Below are positions 3 through 26,155 of a DNA stretch of 34,578 nucleotides, one piece after another. How positions within the stretch are numbered: the first letter of the stretch is position 1; every line of letters begins with the position of its first letter. Position numbers and translations under genes: made by a program. Below the pieces are notes generated by a model. That model ran no database searches. It was not told where the DNA came from and saw only the letters and a list, made by a program, of their open reading frames with translations. The DNA is taken from positions 1-34,578 of the IMG/VR virus record IMGVR_UViG_3300044491_002832. One strand, written 5' to 3'. The stretch comes from a virus.

Positions 3-1220
3 GATATAAATTCAAGTGCAAGTTCATTAGCTATAAACACTATTGGTGCTATACCTATGACATTTATAACTAACGGCACAGAACGCATGAGAATTTCTTC
101 AGGCGGAGACATCTCCTTCTACGATGATACAGGAACTAGCCAAGCTCTATTCTGGGATGCAAGTGCTGAATCGCTTGGAATTGGAACGACTAGTCCTTCA
201 GCACCTTTAAATATTTCTGCTACTTATTCTTCTGATACAACTGAACAATTTAGAATACAAGATAATACAGGTGGTAAATTAGATTTCTTTGGATATTCAA
301 ATGGTGGAAAAGGCATACAAGCATACGCAGATGATGGCTCAACATTTTATAACTTAAATTTACAACCTTTAGGTGGCAACGTTGGAATTGGAACGACTAG
401 TCCAAGCAGTTTTTATTCAGGAGCAAGACAACTTGTTGTTGGCTCGGGTTCTGGTGAGCAAGGTATTACTGTATATGGTGGAAATGCAGAAACTTCTTAC
501 CTTTTGTTTGCAGACGGAACAAGCGGTGCAGAGTTATATGCAGGTCAGGTTAATTACAGCCATGCAAATAATTCATTAAATTTTCATACCAACGGAATTA
601 CAACACCTCGCATGACCATTGATTCTTCAGGCAACTTGTTGGTGGGTACTACTTATGCTGCACTTAATGCTAGACAAGTTGTATATGCAACAGGAAGTGG
701 TGCAAGTACAAGAACACAAACTCTGTGGAATGGTGGTGGTGCAGGTTGTACATATGTTCAATTTGTTAGTTCAACAGGGTCTCAAGTTGGTAGTATTACA
801 CAAAATGGAACAAGTGCAGTAGCATACAACACATCATCAGATTACAGATTAAAAGAAAATGTAGATTATGACTTTACTGCTCTTGATAGAGTTGCACAAT
901 TAAAACCAGCAAGATTTAATTTTATAGAGGATGCAGATAATACAGTAGATGGTTTCTTAGCACATGAGGTTCAGGACATAGTTCCCGAAGCTATTACAGG
1001 TGAAAAGGATGCAGTTAGAGAAGAAGAATACGAAATAACTCCAGCAGTATTAGATGATGATGGTAATGTTGTTACTGAAGCTGTTATGGGAACAAGAGAA
1101 GTACCTGAATATCAAGGCATAGACCAAAGCAAACTTGTACCTCTTTTAACTAAAGCTATACAAGAACAACAAACAATAATAGACAATTTAAAAACTAGAA
1201 TAGAGGCATTGGAAGGATAA
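3..1220 (+). CDS. Tail fibre protein with C-terminal S74 chaperone, 5' partial
   Basis: The reading frame is open from base 3, so the gene begins outside the window; the first in-window ATG (57) is probably internal. The body has beta-rich modules of the form TERMRI-x-SGG and GIGTTSP, typical of trimeric fibres of marine phages. From about base 835 to the stop it matches the peptidase S74 intramolecular chaperone: SSDYRLKENV, then LKPARFNF, DGFLAHEVQ and VPEAITGEKD, then a coiled-coil-like end. In this family the chaperone helps trimerise the fibre and then cleaves itself off near the serine ahead of DYRLKENV. Role: host recognition by the virion. The stop codon is immediately followed by the ATG of the next fibre gene, so the two are probably translated together. 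Family call is firm; receptor is unknown. Confidence 0.9.
   Translation, partial: DINSSASSLAINTIGAIPMTFITNGTERMRISSGGDISFYDDTGTSQALFWDASAESLGIGTTSPSAPLNISATYSSDTTEQFRIQDNTGGKLDFFGYSNGGKGIQAYADDGSTFYNLNLQPLGGNVGIGTTSPSSFYSGARQLVVGSGSGEQGITVYGGNAETSYLLFADGTSGAELYAGQVNYSHANNSLNFHTNGITTPRMTIDSSGNLLVGTTYAALNARQVVYATGSGASTRTQTLWNGGGAGCTYVQFVSSTGSQVGSITQNGTSAVAYNTSSDYRLKENVDYDFTALDRVAQLKPARFNFIEDADNTVDGFLAHEVQDIVPEAITGEKDAVREEEYEITPAVLDDDGNVVTEAVMGTREVPEYQGIDQSKLVPLLTKAIQEQQTIIDNLKTRIEALEG
175..403 (+). repeat. 22-bp direct repeat inside the fibre gene (175-196 and 382-403)
   Basis: An identical 22-bp stretch beginning TTGGAATTGGAACG occurs at 175-196 and 382-403. Each copy encodes the GIGTTSP fibre module. 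A diverged version of the module starts near 2152 in the next gene. Perfect identity at DNA level suggests recent duplication or recombination between fibre modules. Confidence 0.85.
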
Positions 1221-2945: not shown

Positions 2946-2959
2946 CAATTTAACTAATA

Positions 2960-2979
2960 TACCTAGTGGATTCTAGGTA
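2960..2979 (+). promoter_or_regulatory. Stem-loop 1, upstream of the endonuclease VII gene
   Basis: A perfect 7-bp stem (TACCTAG / CTAGGTA) encloses the loop TGGATT, followed by CGGACAT and the ribosome site AGGAGA ahead of ATG 2998. No T-run follows, so it is not a standard terminator. The second copy at 3396-3415 has a different but also perfectly paired stem and nearly the same loop and downstream sequence. That pattern indicates a conserved RNA structure, such as a processing, stability or translation-control element. Function is not known to me. Confidence 0.75.
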
Positions 2980-2997
2980 CGGACATAGGAGAAAAAA

Positions 2998-3402
2998 ATG
3001 GCACTAAAGGTATGCAGAACCTGTAAGTTAGAAAAAGAATCTACTATGTTTGATAAAAATCCAACAGGAACATTTGGCGTTAGGGGCACTTGCAAGGTTT
3101 GTCGAAGTTCGGATAAATTTAAAATAAGAAGACAAAATATAAAAGCAAAATATGGAATAACCATGGAAGATTTTATTGAAATGTATGAGCGTCAAAATGG
3201 TTTATGTGAAATTTGTGATAGAGAACTAGATATGTTTAGCACTCGCGATAGAATGCATCATATAGCAAACATAGATCATTGCCATAAAACAAAAAAAATA
3301 AGATCAATTCTTTGTAATTACTGCAATACTGGTTTGGGAAAATTTATGGATGATGCTAGCTTATTAATAAAAGCATCTAATTATTTAAAAAAATACCAAT
3401 AG
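2998..3402 (+). CDS. Endonuclease VII-like / HNH nuclease (freestanding)
   Basis: A 134-residue protein matching the recombination endonuclease VII family. It has zinc-binding cysteine pairs CRTC (6-9), CKVC (32-35), CEIC (70-73) and CNYC (106-109), the active-site stretch IDHCHKTKKIRSILC around residues 92-106, and the family tail GLGKFMDDASLLIKASNYL. Family members resolve branched DNA or act as freestanding homing nucleases. Its position between tail fibre genes and small membrane proteins, away from replication genes and bracketed by matching stem-loops, suggests a mobile insert rather than a packaging resolvase. The start follows AGGAGA at a good distance. Family call is strong; the homing role is inference. 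Confidence 0.88.
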   Translation: MALKVCRTCKLEKESTMFDKNPTGTFGVRGTCKVCRSSDKFKIRRQNIKAKYGITMEDFIEMYERQNGLCEICDRELDMFSTRDRMHHIANIDHCHKTKKIRSILCNYCNTGLGKFMDDASLLIKASNYLKKYQ

Positions 3403-3415
3403 TGGAGTCTATTGG
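3396..3415 (+). promoter_or_regulatory. Stem-loop 2, overlapping the endonuclease VII stop codon
   Basis: A perfect 7-bp stem (CCAATAG / CTATTGG) encloses the loop TGGAGT, followed by CGGACATCAAGGAGA and ATG 3437. The left arm contains the TAG stop of the nuclease gene. Compared with the copy at 2960-2979, several stem positions change on both sides and pairing is preserved, while loop and downstream CGGACAT stay the same. Confidence 0.75.
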
Positions 3416-3436
3416 CGGACATCAAGGAGAAATAAT

Positions 3437-3730
3437 ATGCCGATAACAAAAGAAATAATAGAAGATAAAATAGAAGTTGTAGGAGACTACAAAACTATAC
3501 AAGTCAGAACAGCTACAGTCATCAAAGAAGATGGCGTAGAGCTTAGTAGGTCTTTTCATAGACACGCATTAGAATGTGTAAGCTCTGTACAAAACGATGA
3601 CGATAGTTGGACTCATACAGATACTGATGTTTCTGAAGAGTCTACAGAGGTTCAAGGTATAGCTTCAACCGTTTGGACTGATGCAGTCAAAACTGCAAAG
3701 AAAACCGCAAATGAAGCAAACTCAATATAG
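3437..3730 (+). CDS. Conserved-looking small phage protein, unknown function
   Basis: A 97-residue soluble protein with no signal or membrane segment. It is rich in Glu, Asp, Thr and Val, has a beta-rich first half (VVGDYKTIQVRTATVIKEDG), an acidic middle (DTDVSEESTEV) and a helical end with VWTDAVKTAKKTANEA. I do not recognise a named domain. It is preceded by AAGGAG downstream of stem-loop 2 and followed by GGAGA serving the next small membrane protein. Its place between fibres and membrane proteins suggests a late gene, possibly a fibre accessory protein, but that is only positional. Confidence 0.7.
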   Translation: MPITKEIIEDKIEVVGDYKTIQVRTATVIKEDGVELSRSFHRHALECVSSVQNDDDSWTHTDTDVSEESTEVQGIASTVWTDAVKTAKKTANEANSI

Positions 3731-3903: not shown

Positions 3904-4254
3904 ATGTCTGAAGCTGTTTCAATAATAACCGAGCTAGGTTTTCCCATTGCGGCAGCTTTAGGTTTAGGTATTTTTGTTTGGAAGTTGATCAATAGAATTA
4001 TTGATGGAATGGAAAACAAGCTTGATACCTTAGACGATAAGGTTCAAACAAGCCTTAACACTATGGAGGAGAGAGTCTCCACAAAACTTGATAGTCAGTA
4101 CGGTATTATTGTAAGCTTAATAGATAGAGTAAGAGCCCTAGATAATCAAAGTATTAGACAGGACGTTTTGCTTAAGACCTTATTAGGAGTTCCTAATTTG
4201 GTTGATATTGACAAGATAGCAAAGGCGGACAGAGATGACCAGAGAAAAGATTGA
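3904..4254 (+). CDS. Membrane-anchored coiled-coil protein, holin/spanin-region
   Basis: A 116-residue protein with one hydrophobic segment at about residues 7-27 (LGFPIAAALGLGIFVWKLI), then a long amphipathic helix (residues 30-85; GMENKLDTLDDKVQTSLN and following), and a charged end. This layout resembles small phage membrane proteins of the lysis region (holin accessory or inner-membrane spanin type), but there is no diagnostic motif. It overlaps the start of the CsgF-like gene by 20 bases, so it is translationally joined to the curli-like module and may belong to it. There is no good ribosome site directly ahead of ATG 3904; the start is the first ATG after the upstream stop. Confidence 0.7.
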   Translation: MSEAVSIITELGFPIAAALGLGIFVWKLINRIIDGMENKLDTLDDKVQTSLNTMEERVSTKLDSQYGIIVSLIDRVRALDNQSIRQDVLLKTLLGVPNLVDIDKIAKADRDDQRKD

Positions 4255-4732
4255 TCAAGAAAGAGAAAAAGACTTAATTTGTAAAGTTGTGGTAGGCATT
4301 GGTTTGTTTTTAATTGTTGCTATTTTTATAGAAAACATAAGAGCAGACGAGATGGTGCATAAGTTTAAGTCTCCTTCTTTCTCCGGGATTGGCACCTCAG
4401 CACATTATCTAACAATAGAGAACCAACAGTTTAATCGTAAGCAAGCACTCAAAGCAGAAATAAAAGCTTTGCAGGACGAAATAGAAAGAGATAAAGAAAA
4501 TACTACTTTAGCTAGGTTTATACGTAATTTAGAGTCTAGAATTTACGCTCAGCTATCAAGACAGCTTGTAGAAAATTTATTTGGTGAAACTCCAAGTGAT
4601 AGTGGTGTTTTAAGTTTAGAAGGAAATACTATAGAGTATAATGTTGTAGACGGAATAATAACTTTAAACATAACTGACTCAGATGGTAATACGACAACTA
4701 TATCTCTCCCTATCGGTAGCTTTACTTTCTAG
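4235..4732 (+). CDS. csgF: CsgF-like curli secretion accessory protein
   Basis: A 165-residue protein. Residues 17-34 are a hydrophobic export segment (VVVGIGLFLIVAIFIENI), with possible cleavage near IRA/DEM. The mature start HKFKSPSFSGIGTSAHYL parallels the CsgF N-terminus ([24 protein letters not shown]), the part that in E. coli inserts into the CsgG channel. The helical middle (70-112) and the end EYNVVDGIITLNITDSDGN parallel the CsgF C-terminus (YIVDIANRDGQLQLNVTD). The alignment is by eye from remembered E. coli sequence. The position directly upstream of csgG matches the csgEFG order. CsgF forms a second constriction in the pore and couples secretion to nucleation at the surface. The middle helix looks longer than in E. 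coli. No CsgE is seen. Confidence 0.82.
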   Translation: MTREKIDQEREKDLICKVVVGIGLFLIVAIFIENIRADEMVHKFKSPSFSGIGTSAHYLTIENQQFNRKQALKAEIKALQDEIERDKENTTLARFIRNLESRIYAQLSRQLVENLFGETPSDSGVLSLEGNTIEYNVVDGIITLNITDSDGNTTTISLPIGSFTF

Positions 4733-5549
4733 CTGTGCGTTAATAATAGATCCGTTAGAGAATAATTTACCCCCAATCCAAAAAATAGAAAAGCCAGAGA
4801 TAGGAACATTACTTGTACCTGAACTTGCTAATATTAAATCAGCAAATAAAGTAAAGCCAGTTGTTGCTATATATACAGGTGGTTTTACAGATCAAACAGG
4901 GCAAAGAAGAAGTAATAGTTCTTATGCAACTTTTTCTTCCGCCGTTACCCAAGCCCCGGATGCTTATTTAATTCGTGCATTAAAACACGCAGGAAGTAAC
5001 CATGATGGATTCTTTGAGGTTGTAGAAAGAGTTGGTTTAGATAATGTAACTAAAGAGCGTCAAATAATCAGAAGCACAAGACAAGAATTTAAAGAAGATA
5101 AAAAATTACAGCCACTAATGTTTGCTGGCTTGATAATGCAAGGTGGTGTGATATCTTATGAAAGTAATATAAAAAGTGGTGGTGCTGGAGCTCGTTATCT
5201 TGGCATTGGAGTGTCAAGGCAATACAAACAAGATACCGTAGCAATCTCTTTGAGAACAGTTTCCGTGAGTACCGGGAAAGTATTATTAGAAGTATTAGTT
5301 ACAAAAACGATATTAAGTGCTTCTATAGATCAAGATGTTTTTCGTTTTATTACCGATTCAACAGAGCTTGTAGAAATAGAAAATGGTTTGGTCAGAAACG
5401 AGTCAATCAATATAGCACTTCAAACGGCAATCGAAACGGCTGTATTACAAACTATAAAAGAAGGAGCAACCAGAGGATATTGGAATATAAATGAACAGAC
5501 TAAAATTATTAATTGCGATGCTGATTGTGTCGCCTCTATACGCGGCTGA
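4683..5549 (+). CDS. csgG: CsgG-like outer-membrane curli secretion lipoprotein
   Basis: A 288-residue protein close in length to bacterial CsgG. It has a lipoprotein signal with lipobox LLSSC (Cys18), and the family hallmarks: YTGGFTDQTGQRR (64-76), FSSAVTQAPDAYLIRAL, FEVVERVGLDN, then GGVISYESNIKSGG and AGARYLGIG (154-176), LRTVSVSTGKVL (190-201), KTILSA, DVFRFI and ALQTAIETAV. CsgG forms a nonameric outer-membrane channel for curlin export. The start at 4683 gives an ideal lipoprotein signal and overlaps csgF by 50 bases in another frame, with no clear ribosome site, implying coupled translation. The last ~20 residues include CDADC and are not typical. Family call is very firm; presence in a phage is the notable point. 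Confidence 0.95.
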   Translation: MVIRQLYLSLSVALLSSCALIIDPLENNLPPIQKIEKPEIGTLLVPELANIKSANKVKPVVAIYTGGFTDQTGQRRSNSSYATFSSAVTQAPDAYLIRALKHAGSNHDGFFEVVERVGLDNVTKERQIIRSTRQEFKEDKKLQPLMFAGLIMQGGVISYESNIKSGGAGARYLGIGVSRQYKQDTVAISLRTVSVSTGKVLLEVLVTKTILSASIDQDVFRFITDSTELVEIENGLVRNESINIALQTAIETAVLQTIKEGATRGYWNINEQTKIINCDADCVASIRG

Positions 5550-6201
5550 TAACGAAATATATGTTGATCAGTCAGGATCTACTGCAAACATAGATCTAGA
5601 GCAACTAGGATCATCTAATATTATTGGTGGTTTAAACTCTGTTGCAGGTACACTCACAGCCTTAGACTTAGATGGATTAAACTTAACACTAGACATAAAC
5701 CAAATAGGTAATACTAATAAATTCCTTGGTGATATCTTAGGTGATAATATTACTGGCTTTTTTGAATTTGATGGAGATGGTAATAACTTTACTATACAAG
5801 GCGATCCAGACAATACCTATGGTATTGATAACTCAGACTACAACGTAGATGTAACTGGTAGCTCTAATACATTCACACTTGATACAGGTACAACAGCATT
5901 AGCTTCTGGTCTTGACTTAGACTGGATAATCAACGGCGACAGCAACACATTTGATTTTGATATAAACTATGATGGTGCTACTAACTATGTAGATGTAGAT
6001 GGAGATAGCAATACAATAAACTTTACAGGAAGCGGATATGCAGGTGGGTATTTCTATCTTGACCAAACAGGAAACAGTAGAACATTCAATATCATACAGT
6101 CATCAACTCTTGCTGTTGATTGGCTACAGATTAACTCTACTGGTTCTAACGGTACTGTTTGTGTCGTTCAGAACGATGGCGGAACAACCACCAGCTGTTG
6201 A
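5491..6201 (+). CDS. Secreted curlin-like (CsgA/CsgB-type) repeat protein
   Basis: A 236-residue protein with a clean Sec signal peptide (MNRLKLLIAMLIVSPLYA, then AD). The mature part has about eight degenerate repeats ending in G-x-x-N followed by a beta pair, for example DQSGSTANIDLEQLGSSN, DINQIGNTN, DVTGSSNTFTLDTG, DVDGDSNTINFTGSG and LDQTGNSRTFNIIQSS. This resembles curlin repeats (Q-x-G-x-x-N-x-x-x-x-Q), but many Gln positions are Asp and the protein is very acidic. It ends with a Cys-containing segment (TVCVVQND through the C-terminal Cys). It overlaps csgG by 59 bases. Likely role: the substrate exported through CsgG/CsgF, forming an amyloid-like or beta-solenoid fibre. The curlin assignment rests on repeats plus context and could instead be a soluble beta-helix. 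Confidence 0.8.
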   Translation: MNRLKLLIAMLIVSPLYAADNEIYVDQSGSTANIDLEQLGSSNIIGGLNSVAGTLTALDLDGLNLTLDINQIGNTNKFLGDILGDNITGFFEFDGDGNNFTIQGDPDNTYGIDNSDYNVDVTGSSNTFTLDTGTTALASGLDLDWIINGDSNTFDFDINYDGATNYVDVDGDSNTINFTGSGYAGGYFYLDQTGNSRTFNIIQSSTLAVDWLQINSTGSNGTVCVVQNDGGTTTSC

Positions 6202-7231
6202 TATAGGAAACATATCTGAACTAAATGGTTCAGCACAGATACTAAGAGACAAACCTTATGAAGCAAAAGAGTCTTTTGATATACAACAAAATGATGAAGC
6301 AATTACGACTAATGGTCGTATGGCTATTACGTTCCTAGACGACTCCAAGGTAAGACTTACAGAAAACTCTCAGCTAACCATAGACGAATACATCTTTGAC
6401 CCCAACCCTAGCAAGTCTAAGATGGCTATTACCTTTGGTCTTGGCACAGCTAGGTTTATTACTGGCGGTCTAAATAAGATAGATAAAAACAATATAGATC
6501 TTAAAACACCCACAGCAAACATAGCAATTCGTGGTACTGATTTCACAGTTACGGTAGATGAAATTGGCAGGTCTTTGCTTATACTTTTACCAGATGAATT
6601 TGGTAATTCTAGTGGTGAGATATTAGTAACTACAGCCATGGGTACAGTTACACTTAATAAACCTTACGAAGCTACAACAGTAGATGTCTTTGAGAAATCA
6701 CCTAGTTCACCTGTAATCTTAGACTTAACACTAGACCTTATAGACAATATGCTAATTGTTAATCCACCTAAAGAAGAGGTGGTTGTAGAAGAAACAACAC
6801 AAACCAAAAAGAAAAACATACTAGACTTTGATGGTTTAGATGAGGACTTCTTAGAAGAAGATTTCTTAGACTCAGAGAAAGAACTGGAGTTTACAGAGTT
6901 AGATATAAACTATCTTGATGTAAACTTCCTAGAAGATTTGTTAGATGTCATAGACGCATTACAGGAAATACAACAAGAAGATCAGCTAGCACAAGACGCT
7001 ACATCTACTAATATTGTTGGTACACAGCTAGGTCAAGATTTAAAAACGCAAGTAACATCTTTTATAACAGGAGAAGTATTAACACTTATGCGTAGCGTGA
7101 GTGACACAGCTAGAGTAGATATAGACTCTGCTGGTAGTTATACTGTTATCTTTATACAAGATGGTGCATCCAATGTTATTAAAATAAATGGTGGCACTGG
7201 TAGCACTATCAAAATCACTCAAAGTAATTAA
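6038..7231 (+). CDS. FecR-domain envelope protein with C-terminal curlin-like repeat
   Basis: The FecR domain spans about residues 50-170: IGNISELNGSAQILRD, GRMAITFLDDSKVRLTENSQL, then TPTANIAIRGTDFTVTVDE. An acidic, low-complexity linker follows (about 250-305, rich in DFLEEDFLD-like repeats), then a helical region and a final segment (about 367-397) with FIQDGASNVIKINGGTG and STIKITQSN, which looks like a curlin repeat. Two starts are possible. ATG 6038 has AGGA at good spacing and gives a hydrophobic leader (LLLLIGYRLTLLVLTVLF, then RTMA), but overlaps the curlin gene by 164 bases. ATG 6176 (351 residues) lacks a ribosome site and leader. I prefer 6038 because FecR domains with this layout are normally extracytoplasmic. 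Role inferred: envelope sensor or fibre anchor. Confidence 0.8.
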   Translation: MQVGISILTKQETVEHSISYSHQLLLLIGYRLTLLVLTVLFVSFRTMAEQPPAVDIGNISELNGSAQILRDKPYEAKESFDIQQNDEAITTNGRMAITFLDDSKVRLTENSQLTIDEYIFDPNPSKSKMAITFGLGTARFITGGLNKIDKNNIDLKTPTANIAIRGTDFTVTVDEIGRSLLILLPDEFGNSSGEILVTTAMGTVTLNKPYEATTVDVFEKSPSSPVILDLTLDLIDNMLIVNPPKEEVVVEETTQTKKKNILDFDGLDEDFLEEDFLDSEKELEFTELDINYLDVNFLEDLLDVIDALQEIQQEDQLAQDATSTNIVGTQLGQDLKTQVTSFITGEVLTLMRSVSDTARVDIDSAGSYTVIFIQDGASNVIKINGGTGSTIKITQSN

Positions 7232-8979
7232 TGAAGCGACTACTATTCACCATACTTATAATACTAGTGTTGCCTGTCTTATATCAGTCAACGCCCACAG
7301 AAACACTAAAACTAAAAGTATTTGATTATCTTGTACCTAAACAAGATCCTTCTGGCTACTTTACTATTCTTAACATAACCGAAGAAGATATAGATGCAGA
7401 GGGCGGATATCCTATACCAAGACAAAGATTAGCAGAAATTAATAAACAAATATTAGATAGTGGTGCTTTAGGTGTGGGTTGGGTTATTGCTTTCCCTCAC
7501 CCAGATCGACTCGGGGGAGATAAAGAATTTGCAGAGTCTCTTCGACAAGGTACAACAATATTAGCTATGTTTGAAGCCCCAAATCAAATATACCCAAAAA
7601 CAGTTGGAACGGTAATGTTAGGATCAGGAAAAGGTGGTATGTTGTCCAAAGGTGTAGTTCAAAATACTATCAACCTTAGAAATTATGTACAACAGGGTAT
7701 TGCAACTGCACCTACTGATATAGACAACTTAGTCAGAAGAATCCCTTTATTATTAAAAACACCAGATGGATATGTTCCTGCGTTTGGTACAGAAGTTTTA
7801 AAAGCATTAGTTGGGGCTGATACCTATGTAATTAAAAGTAATGATCTTGGTATAGAAGAAATAAGAGTAAAAGGATTGCCACCAGTTAAAACAGATAGCC
7901 TTGGTCGTAAGTGGATTAGTTGGGTTGATACACCGCAAACTAATTTACAAGAACTAGATGTTGCAAATAAATTTGTATTTGTTGGTATTACTGCTCCAGG
8001 AATCATGCCACAAATTGCAACTCCAACTGGATTATTAGAACCACACAAAATTCAAACAGCATTATCTGAGTCAATTCTTATAGAAAACTCTCCAAGGATT
8101 CCAGAATGGTCATTGGTAGCTGAAATTTTAATTTTTGGAATTTTCGTGTCGTTGACATGGCTTGTAATCAATTATCTCGGTGTAGTTAAGGGTCTAAGTA
8201 TCGCTGTAATTTTGCTATTCACCACGGGCTTCTTAGGAGCATATAGCGTTCAGAAGGGCTATTTGATAGATTTTTCATGGACTTTTATCTCACAAATCAT
8301 AACTTCTACTATTGCCTTCTATATTAACTACAAAAAACAATATAAATTGCGTCAACAAATTAAAAAACAGTTTGAACATTATTTAGATCCAAGACAAATT
8401 AAAAGACTTCAAGATAATCCCAGTCTGCTGAAACTCGGGGGAGAGAAAAAAGAAGCAACATTTTTATTTACAGATGTTAGGGGCTTTACCTCTTTATCAG
8501 AAAAATTAGAACCAGAAGAAGTAACTGAGATTATGAATAAGGCATTAACAATACAATCAGACGCTGTGCAAAAATATGGTGGCATGGTAGATAAATATAT
8601 TGGTGATGCAATGATGGCTATATTTAATGCACCTATAGATTTAGATGATCACAGAAGCAGAGCAGTGGAAACAGCAATAGAAATTAAACAAAAAATGAAA
8701 GAAGCAAACTTGGGTATAGAGATTGGTATAGGAATTAATACTGGTATTGCTGTTATAGGTAATATGGGAAGCGATACTAGGTTTGATTACTCTGCTATTG
8801 GGGACTGCGTAAACACAGCAGCAAGGCTAGAATCAGCAACCAAAGAGGTGGGAGAAGATATATTGATAGGATATCCTACTGCCATAGATTGCAAATTTAG
8901 GTTAAAATTACTTAAACCAATAAAAGTTAAAGGCAAGAGCCAACAACTGTCAATTTATACAGTAGATAGAGGAAAGTAA
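7231..8979 (+). CDS. CHASE2-domain membrane adenylate/guanylate cyclase (class III)
   Basis: A 582-residue protein. It has an N-terminal membrane segment (1-20), a CHASE2-type extracytoplasmic sensor (about 25-285), three membrane helices (about 291-316, 319-340, 347-368), a linker, and a class III cyclase domain (405-578). Catalytic residues are all present: metal-binding Asp415 (FTDVRGFTSLSE) and Asp459 (KYIGDAMMAIF), base-recognition Lys455 and Asp525, and transition-state Asn528 and Arg532 (GDCVNTAARLES). The Lys/Asp pair favours ATP, so cAMP is the likely product. The start overlaps the FecR stop (TAATG). CHASE2 cyclases next to FecR proteins occur in bacterial genomes, so this pair was probably acquired as a unit. 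Domain call is firm; the role in a phage is unknown. Confidence 0.95.
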   Translation: MKRLLFTILIILVLPVLYQSTPTETLKLKVFDYLVPKQDPSGYFTILNITEEDIDAEGGYPIPRQRLAEINKQILDSGALGVGWVIAFPHPDRLGGDKEFAESLRQGTTILAMFEAPNQIYPKTVGTVMLGSGKGGMLSKGVVQNTINLRNYVQQGIATAPTDIDNLVRRIPLLLKTPDGYVPAFGTEVLKALVGADTYVIKSNDLGIEEIRVKGLPPVKTDSLGRKWISWVDTPQTNLQELDVANKFVFVGITAPGIMPQIATPTGLLEPHKIQTALSESILIENSPRIPEWSLVAEILIFGIFVSLTWLVINYLGVVKGLSIAVILLFTTGFLGAYSVQKGYLIDFSWTFISQIITSTIAFYINYKKQYKLRQQIKKQFEHYLDPRQIKRLQDNPSLLKLGGEKKEATFLFTDVRGFTSLSEKLEPEEVTEIMNKALTIQSDAVQKYGGMVDKYIGDAMMAIFNAPIDLDDHRSRAVETAIEIKQKMKEANLGIEIGIGINTGIAVIGNMGSDTRFDYSAIGDCVNTAARLESATKEVGEDILIGYPTAIDCKFRLKLLKPIKVKGKSQQLSIYTVDRGK

Positions 8980-25354: not shown

Positions 25355-26155
25355 CTAAGATATCAGAGTATTACTTGCCTCACAAGCTTCGCTTAAATAA
25401 TCTTTTGATAGGTGTGCATACCTATTTACAATATTAAAATCGGACCACCCACCAAGATGTTGGAGCGTATGCAGAGGAGTACCGTTCTGCACATGGTGGG
25501 TAGCCCAGGTATGGCGGATATCATGCCATCTAAATCCTTCCAAGTTTGCTTTCTTTAATGCGTTATACCATCCAGTATTAGAGGCTCTACTGATTTTTCT
25601 TCCTGAGTAGGTAAAAACATAAGGGCTTTGTTTTTTAATTGATTTTAGAAGCTCTCTGCATTTTTCGTTTAAAGGAACGCAAAGACTTTTACCATTTTTG
25701 GTTTCGGTTCCATCAATGGCTATTTGATCTTTTTTAATATCTTCCCATTTAAGATTAAAGCAGTTGGACATTCTAACCCCAGTAAGGAGGGAAAAGATAA
25801 AAGGTTTCTGCAGGTGCAGGGGAAGCACATTGTGCAGTTTCCTTATATCTTCAAGAGTAAAGTATTTAGTTTTTTTAGGGAACTCCCTTACTCTTTTAAC
25901 AGAGGGCTTAGTGTCCAACCACCCTAACTCTTCATATGCATACATAAGTATTGCACGGAAGTAGTTTAAATATCTATTGACAGTTCCGGGACTCCCCTTT
26001 ATTCCCGATCTGGCATTAGCGATATGTTCTTTTGTAATACTTCTTAAGTCTATATTAGCAAACAATGGATCAAAATACCTTCTATAAGTAAAATCATTTT
26101 TACCCATCTTGTTAAACCTATAATACTGTCTTACAGCGTCATTCCAAGTATTCAT
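25355..26155 (-). CDS. int: Tyrosine recombinase / phage integrase
   Basis: A 266-residue site-specific recombinase. It has an N-terminal SAM-like core-binding domain (about 1-90) and a catalytic domain (95-266) with Arg128 (TGVRMSN), Lys153 (ETKNGKS), His211 and Arg214 (HDIRHTWATH), Trp237 in place of the second His (LGGWSD) and nucleophile Tyr246 (NRYAHLS). It is shorter than lambda Int and lacks an arm-binding domain, as in many compact phage integrases. Role: integration and excision of the phage genome, hence a temperate lifestyle. It is the last gene of the leftward operon and overlaps the stop of the 40-residue gene (ATGA). No attachment core resembling a tRNA end could be recognised nearby. 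Confidence 0.95.
   Translation of the reverse strand: MNTWNDAVRQYYRFNKMGKNDFTYRRYFDPLFANIDLRSITKEHIANARSGIKGSPGTVNRYLNYFRAILMYAYEELGWLDTKPSVKRVREFPKKTKYFTLEDIRKLHNVLPLHLQKPFIFSLLTGVRMSNCFNLKWEDIKKDQIAIDGTETKNGKSLCVPLNEKCRELLKSIKKQSPYVFTYSGRKISRASNTGWYNALKKANLEGFRWHDIRHTWATHHVQNGTPLHTLQHLGGWSDFNIVNRYAHLSKDYLSEACEASNTLIS

Follow-up and report, generated by a model that had tools for sequence, protein, structure and literature searches.

A covarying RNA hairpin forms a conserved leader of the phrog_6228 gene in aquatic phages and also precedes an endonuclease VII gene in one of them

The two hairpins that flank an endonuclease VII (EndoVII) gene in the window, by which we mean the whole 34,578-nucleotide stretch of virus record IMGVR_UViG_3300044491_002832 analysed here, are copies of a leader that is conserved ahead of the phrog_6228 gene and are not part of the nuclease. 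They belong to a well-supported RNA family whose position is constant before this one gene family. Its most likely role, to which we give a probability of roughly 0.45, is that of a gene-specific leader for translational control, most probably a protein-bound operator whose likeliest binder would be the product of phrog_6228 itself.

In each copy, a perfect 7-bp stem closes a six-base loop, TGGA(T/G)T; CGGACAT comes next, then a Shine-Dalgarno sequence that lies outside the hairpin, and finally a start codon (Table 1). These elements and the gene order are all present as given in the preliminary description. The stop codon of the 574-aa tail-module gene lies 14 nt ahead of copy 1, and the stop codon of EndoVII (TAG, 3400-3402) lies inside the 5' arm of copy 2. 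First-order Markov simulation of the window predicts, for each strand, 0.05 hairpins that combine a perfect 7-bp stem with an NGGANN loop; the plus strand has three, two of them followed by CGGAC, a combination absent from 200 such simulations. The motif CGGACAT taken alone is not significant in the window (2 seen versus 0.88 expected).

Table 1. Coordinates of the features of the window discussed in the text.
Feature	Position	Strand	Remarks
Peptidase_S74 gene	57-1220		Upstream of the 574-aa tail-module gene
Upstream tail-module gene, 574 aa	1221-2945	+	phrog_29288, weak
Conserved 5' TA immediately before the stem of copy 1	2958-2959	+	
Hairpin copy 1, TACCTAG-TGGATT-CTAGGTA	2960-2979	+	Covariance model R1, E 1.1e-11
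3' flank CGGACAT of copy 1, conserved	2980-2986	+	
Shine-Dalgarno AGGAG	2987-2991	+	Putative present user EndoVII; ATG at 2998
Endonuclease VII gene	2998-3402	+	Endonuclease_7 PF02945, E=2.4e-19; phrog_2633
Hairpin copy 2, CCAATAG-TGGAGT-CTATTGG	3396-3415	+	Covariance model R1, E 2.1e-9
3' flank CGGACAT of copy 2, conserved	3416-3422	+	
Shine-Dalgarno AAGGAG of the phrog_6228 gene	3424-3429	+	ATG at 3437
phrog_6228 gene, 97 aa	3437-3730	+	Gene to which the leader belongs
csgF, csgG, FecR-domain and CHASE2-cyclase genes	4235-8979		In a row
Integrase gene	25355-26155	-	phrog_1

We scanned viral contigs with the loop and flank fixed and the stem left free. Among the matches listed, which number 121, 42 had all seven stem positions paired (a figure that includes both copies of the window), 8 more had six pairs, and nearly all of the paired occurrences were directly before phrog_6228 genes. 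A second scan searched for GGATT-N7-CGGACA-SD and did not require pairing. Among the matches listed, it returned 31 distinct stems before phrog_6228, with 25 paired at 7/7 positions, six at 6/7, and none lower; most of the listed stems that are not before phrog_6228 pair at 5/7 or fewer, and four pair at 6-7/7, including the EndoVII copy of the window and one contig end. The reverse test used loci fetched by protein similarity alone, ignoring the motif. The strict hairpin was present in 84 of 100 distinct leaders among the matches listed, and the other 16 had a variant that was judged recognisable by eye. Variants comprise a five-base CGGAG loop (e.g., TGTCTAT-cggag-ATAGGCA), a one-base insertion, and a longer ACCC..GGGT stem before CGGACA. 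In the phage genomes searched whole, covariance model R1 found one copy per carrying genome, ahead of phrog_6228; the window alone has two. One more match, a weak one in genome G004 (E about 1), is at chance level. A covariance-model search that would record the genes following the motif and compare phages lacking the nuclease had been proposed at the outset; once run, it found further copies, before phrog_6228, and the variation in their stems proved to be compensated.

The sequence variation of the stem has the pattern expected of a structured RNA. In a gap-free alignment of 46 leaders with distinct stem/loop combinations, 98.1% of the stem cells are paired, double compensatory changes occur in 7/7 pairs, and the covariation score is 1.06, versus 0.23 for shuffled and 0.08-0.16 for slid pairings. 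The rows of this alignment were selected for at least 6/7 pairs, and the unfiltered scan and the protein-fetched leaders are thus the safer proof; they agree with it. Counting cells that are not independent among related stems, G-U outnumbers A-C by 17 to 6 (17 to 2 without the terminal pair, which holds four of the A-C), which indicates that the element acts as sense-strand RNA. Selection on RNA structure is therefore strongly supported. The preliminary description had regarded the two copies of the window as direct evidence for it, which is too strong for two copies alone and agrees with the wider data. The stem drifts with compensation, while the TA before it (T in 46/46 leaders, A in at least 90%), the GGA of the loop, and the GA(CA) of the 3' flank are invariant or nearly so. 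In nearly all leaders the loop reads (U/C)GGANN, with GGA occupying positions 2-4, and it mostly contains GGAU. Some clades have lost the loop GGA or have the Shine-Dalgarno itself in place of CGGACA.

Searches for known elements gave no family at the gathering threshold of Rfam 15 and only chance matches with permissive settings, no tRNA, no BLASTN match of the locus against phages, and no paper describing the hairpin in our literature search. The glutamine riboswitch reported together with ssrA in Melnitz (PMC9004378) was rejected, as Rfam had no match at the hairpin locus. We also discarded an intrinsic terminator, because the stem is followed by CGGACA instead of a U run; a pairing in copy 2 between CGGACAT and AUG-CCG, because the last T varies and the pairing is not conserved; and a pseudoknot between the loop GAUU and a 5' AAUU, which is not kept in all clades of the alignment inspected by eye.

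The comparison with relatives clarifies why the nuclease lies between two leaders. In relatives lacking EndoVII, the tail gene, the copy-1 leader, and the phrog_6228 gene are joined directly, and the tail-fibre genes upstream of the leader differ from one relative to another. The stem and loop of copy 1 are identical to those of most close relatives, and on this comparison copy 1 is the ancestral leader of the phrog_6228 gene. The EndoVII ORF starts where the start codon of phrog_6228 lies in relatives, the leader ahead of it is unchanged, and its stop is followed by a second leader with a stem differing from that of copy 1. Judging from this geometry, EndoVII appears to have been inserted between the ancestral leader and the phrog_6228 gene, and to be now using the resident leader. 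The stem of copy 2 was not found elsewhere among the matches listed in viral contigs, which thus gave no source phage for it. Its import with the nuclease seems likelier than the drift of a duplicate, because drift would need several coordinated double changes. The hairpin followed by CGGACA was found at 0 of 48 other EndoVII-homologue loci among the matches listed, and we rejected the idea that the EndoVII cassette always carries it. Hence, the bracketing of EndoVII by hairpins is true in the window and incidental, since elsewhere the motif is directly before the phrog_6228 gene without a nuclease; for the same reason, the suggestion that the motif is the remains of a nuclease insertion site is unsupported.

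EndoVII resolves branched DNA, its gene lies exactly at the hairpins, and the upstream tail-fibre genes are variable, all of which would suit a DNA-level site, either a cruciform or a place of insertion or recombination for EndoVII or for tail-fibre exchange. We nevertheless consider such a site highly improbable: the excess of G-U over A-C points to RNA of one strand, the motif occurs where EndoVII is absent and is missing from the 48 EndoVII loci, and it keeps its register with the Shine-Dalgarno and the start codon. The window shows an inserted nuclease gene sharing a locus while its neighbour keeps a leader.

Among the matches listed, the hairpin and the phrog_6228 gene are found together in many otherwise unrelated aquatic phages. 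They include two isolates, the T4-like Methylophilales phage Melnitz-3 and the T7-like Roseobacter phage CRP-804 (Autographiviridae), and a genome assembled from Manatee Spring (MW202753). The distance from hairpin to start is usually 10-32 nt and reaches 67 nt in CRP-804. In one clade (L330, L335-L337, L341) the hairpin and CGGACAG are kept and the loop GGA is lost; L341 and CRP-804 have a second hairpin, of the GTGGC..GCCAC type, directly after the first. Pelagibacter podophages and Kolga have the phrog_6228 gene and lack the hairpin. T4-type and T7-type cyanophages alike have a different hairpin of 3-6 bp, with the Shine-Dalgarno GGAG in a YGGAG loop, and the same form is found in one freshwater gammaproteobacterial phage. 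In the cyanophages, this form of hairpin has several different paired stems, which covary, and is present once per gene; it occurs twice in Synechococcus phage S-SRM01, which has two gene copies. Both phrog_6228-type genes of S-SRM01 (the second at MW015081 10630-10884) follow an endosialidase gene and have similar leaders. Thirteen of the cyanophage leaders have nearly constant flanks, CCTAAACCTGTT...TCCTA. In the protein tree (118 rows, few columns, midpoint root), the main leader type is represented on either side of the root, and the cyanophage type occurs in a few groups. The position of the main type suggests that the leader is probably old.

We propose that the hairpin, CGGACA, and the Shine-Dalgarno would form a cis-acting leader that functions around the site of translation initiation in the sense-strand mRNA. 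Because the hairpin alone keeps most of the Shine-Dalgarno accessible, a trans-acting factor must be assumed. A protein would read two elements, the loop and the base-proximal GGA that is unpaired, and once bound would block or time the entry of the ribosome at the adjoining Shine-Dalgarno. An operator is the most likely option because the loop GGA and CGGACA are near-constant while the stem drifts with compensation. The product of phrog_6228 would be the likeliest binder because the element accompanies this gene in phages with different hosts, whether T4-like, T7-like, or of other kinds, and the most economical one because no other feature is known that all carriers share. Binding to its own leader would make the control autogenous. 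In the window, EndoVII would have taken over the resident leader and phrog_6228 would be served by the second one, fused to the 3' end of EndoVII. Some observations count against an operator: the 67 nt spacing of CRP-804 would call for a different geometry if the block were steric, some clades (L330, L341) have the stem and CGGACA without the loop GGA, and the homologues of Pelagibacter phages have no hairpin. Furthermore, the leader type tracks the host group in cyanophages and Pelagibacter phages, so a host factor remains a candidate. Control of translation, one of the roles proposed in the preliminary description, is thus the most likely reading of the sequence.

A hairpin with the Shine-Dalgarno outside it, or exposed in the loop as in cyanophages, could also act without a specific binder, as a ribosome standby site or translation-enhancing structure that keeps the Shine-Dalgarno region open for 30S loading. 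We regard this as decidedly unlikely, since it leaves unexplained both the conservation of the loop GGA and of CGGACA and the restriction to a single gene family. These GGA motifs, two to three in series and 13 nt apart from GGA to GGA, recall the sites of a host regulator of the CsrA/RsmA kind, which would read the loop GGA, a second GGA, and the Shine-Dalgarno; in some leaders (L291, L299, L331) the second GGA is the Shine-Dalgarno itself. The register known for CsrA/RsmE is an ANGGAN hexaloop. The leaders differ from it, as their GGA occupies positions 2-4 of the loop (G[UGGAUU]C), and they are confined to one phage gene, with no second copy found by the covariance model elsewhere in the phage genomes searched. 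The window has no CsrA gene, and the hosts span several bacterial groups. We consider such a regulator very improbable. Finally, the hairpin follows directly on the tail-fibre stop and its loop is mostly GGAU. The motif GGAU/GGAG is cut by T4 RegB, which acts alone if GGA is unpaired and the fourth base is constrained (PMC3014915). A phage or host ribonuclease might recognise the hairpin with its GGA motifs and cut or stop there, separating the downstream gene from the long tail-fibre transcript; alternatively, the structure might shield the new 5' end. Such a role in mRNA processing or stability is unlikely: the hairpin is gene-specific and present once per genome, whereas RegB-type sites are many, and the conserved 3' CGGACA would be left unexplained.

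A close parallel for the putative operator is the autogenous translational operator of gene 43, the DNA polymerase gene of T4 and RB69, to which binding of gp43 was shown (PMC3014915). Each is a small hairpin whose loop is conserved, and each lies ahead of the ribosome-binding site (RBS) of one gene, or extends to it, across related phages. The resemblance is in anatomy: the phrog_6228 leader has another gene, loop, and flank, spans unrelated phage groups, and its binder is only putative. Among phage endonuclease genes, seg43(25) of Aeromonas phage 25 has a single predicted hairpin directly upstream of its RBS, which it does not hide (PMC2988022), as in the window; unlike it, the phrog_6228 leader exists without an endonuclease and belongs to another gene. 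The hairpins of the homing endonuclease genes I-TevI, segB, and mobE also place RNA structure at the gene start, but they sequester the RBS (PMC2988022), whereas those of the window leave it outside the structure.

The phrog_6228 proteins have about 80-105 aa, and their gene usually comes after a structural gene, such as one for a tail fibre or an endosialidase. A confident AlphaFold2 model (mean pLDDT 95) has five strands and two helices. Comparison of the model with PDB folds gave no match, comparison with viral models gave one clear match, and a protein-profile search of PDB sequences found nothing significant. The predicted fold gives no support for RNA binding. Our literature search did not find phrog_6228 by name, and we found no information on the protein in the paper on the P-SCSP1u virion. 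A broader proposal is possible if doubtful: phrog_6228 might represent a new class of self-controlling phage RNA-binding proteins that act through a YGGA-loop hairpin. The circuit would be old enough to span phages of several bacterial groups, whether T4-like, T7-like, or of other kinds, and would have two RNA forms, the hairpin with CGGACA and the cyanophage form with the Shine-Dalgarno in the loop. In the window, a nuclease would have been inserted behind the resident leader, the displaced gene having a second, divergent one.

The leader adds a well-supported RNA family without an Rfam match, ahead of a widespread tail-module gene of aquatic phages, and its carriers include isolated phages, which makes it open to experiment. 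That one hairpin would control a single tail-module gene in phages of T4-like, T7-like, and other kinds suggests that the amount of phrog_6228 protein made, or the time at which it is made, matters. The rest of the window has other features of note. It encodes an integrase (phrog_1), which suggests that the phage is temperate. Downstream of phrog_6228, csgF (PF10614), csgG (PF03783), and the genes of a FecR-domain protein and of a protein with CHASE2 and adenylate/guanylate cyclase domains follow one another. Pelagimyophages and Melnitz are known to carry curli pore genes (PMC9004378), and a CHASE2-cyclase seems unusual in a phage.
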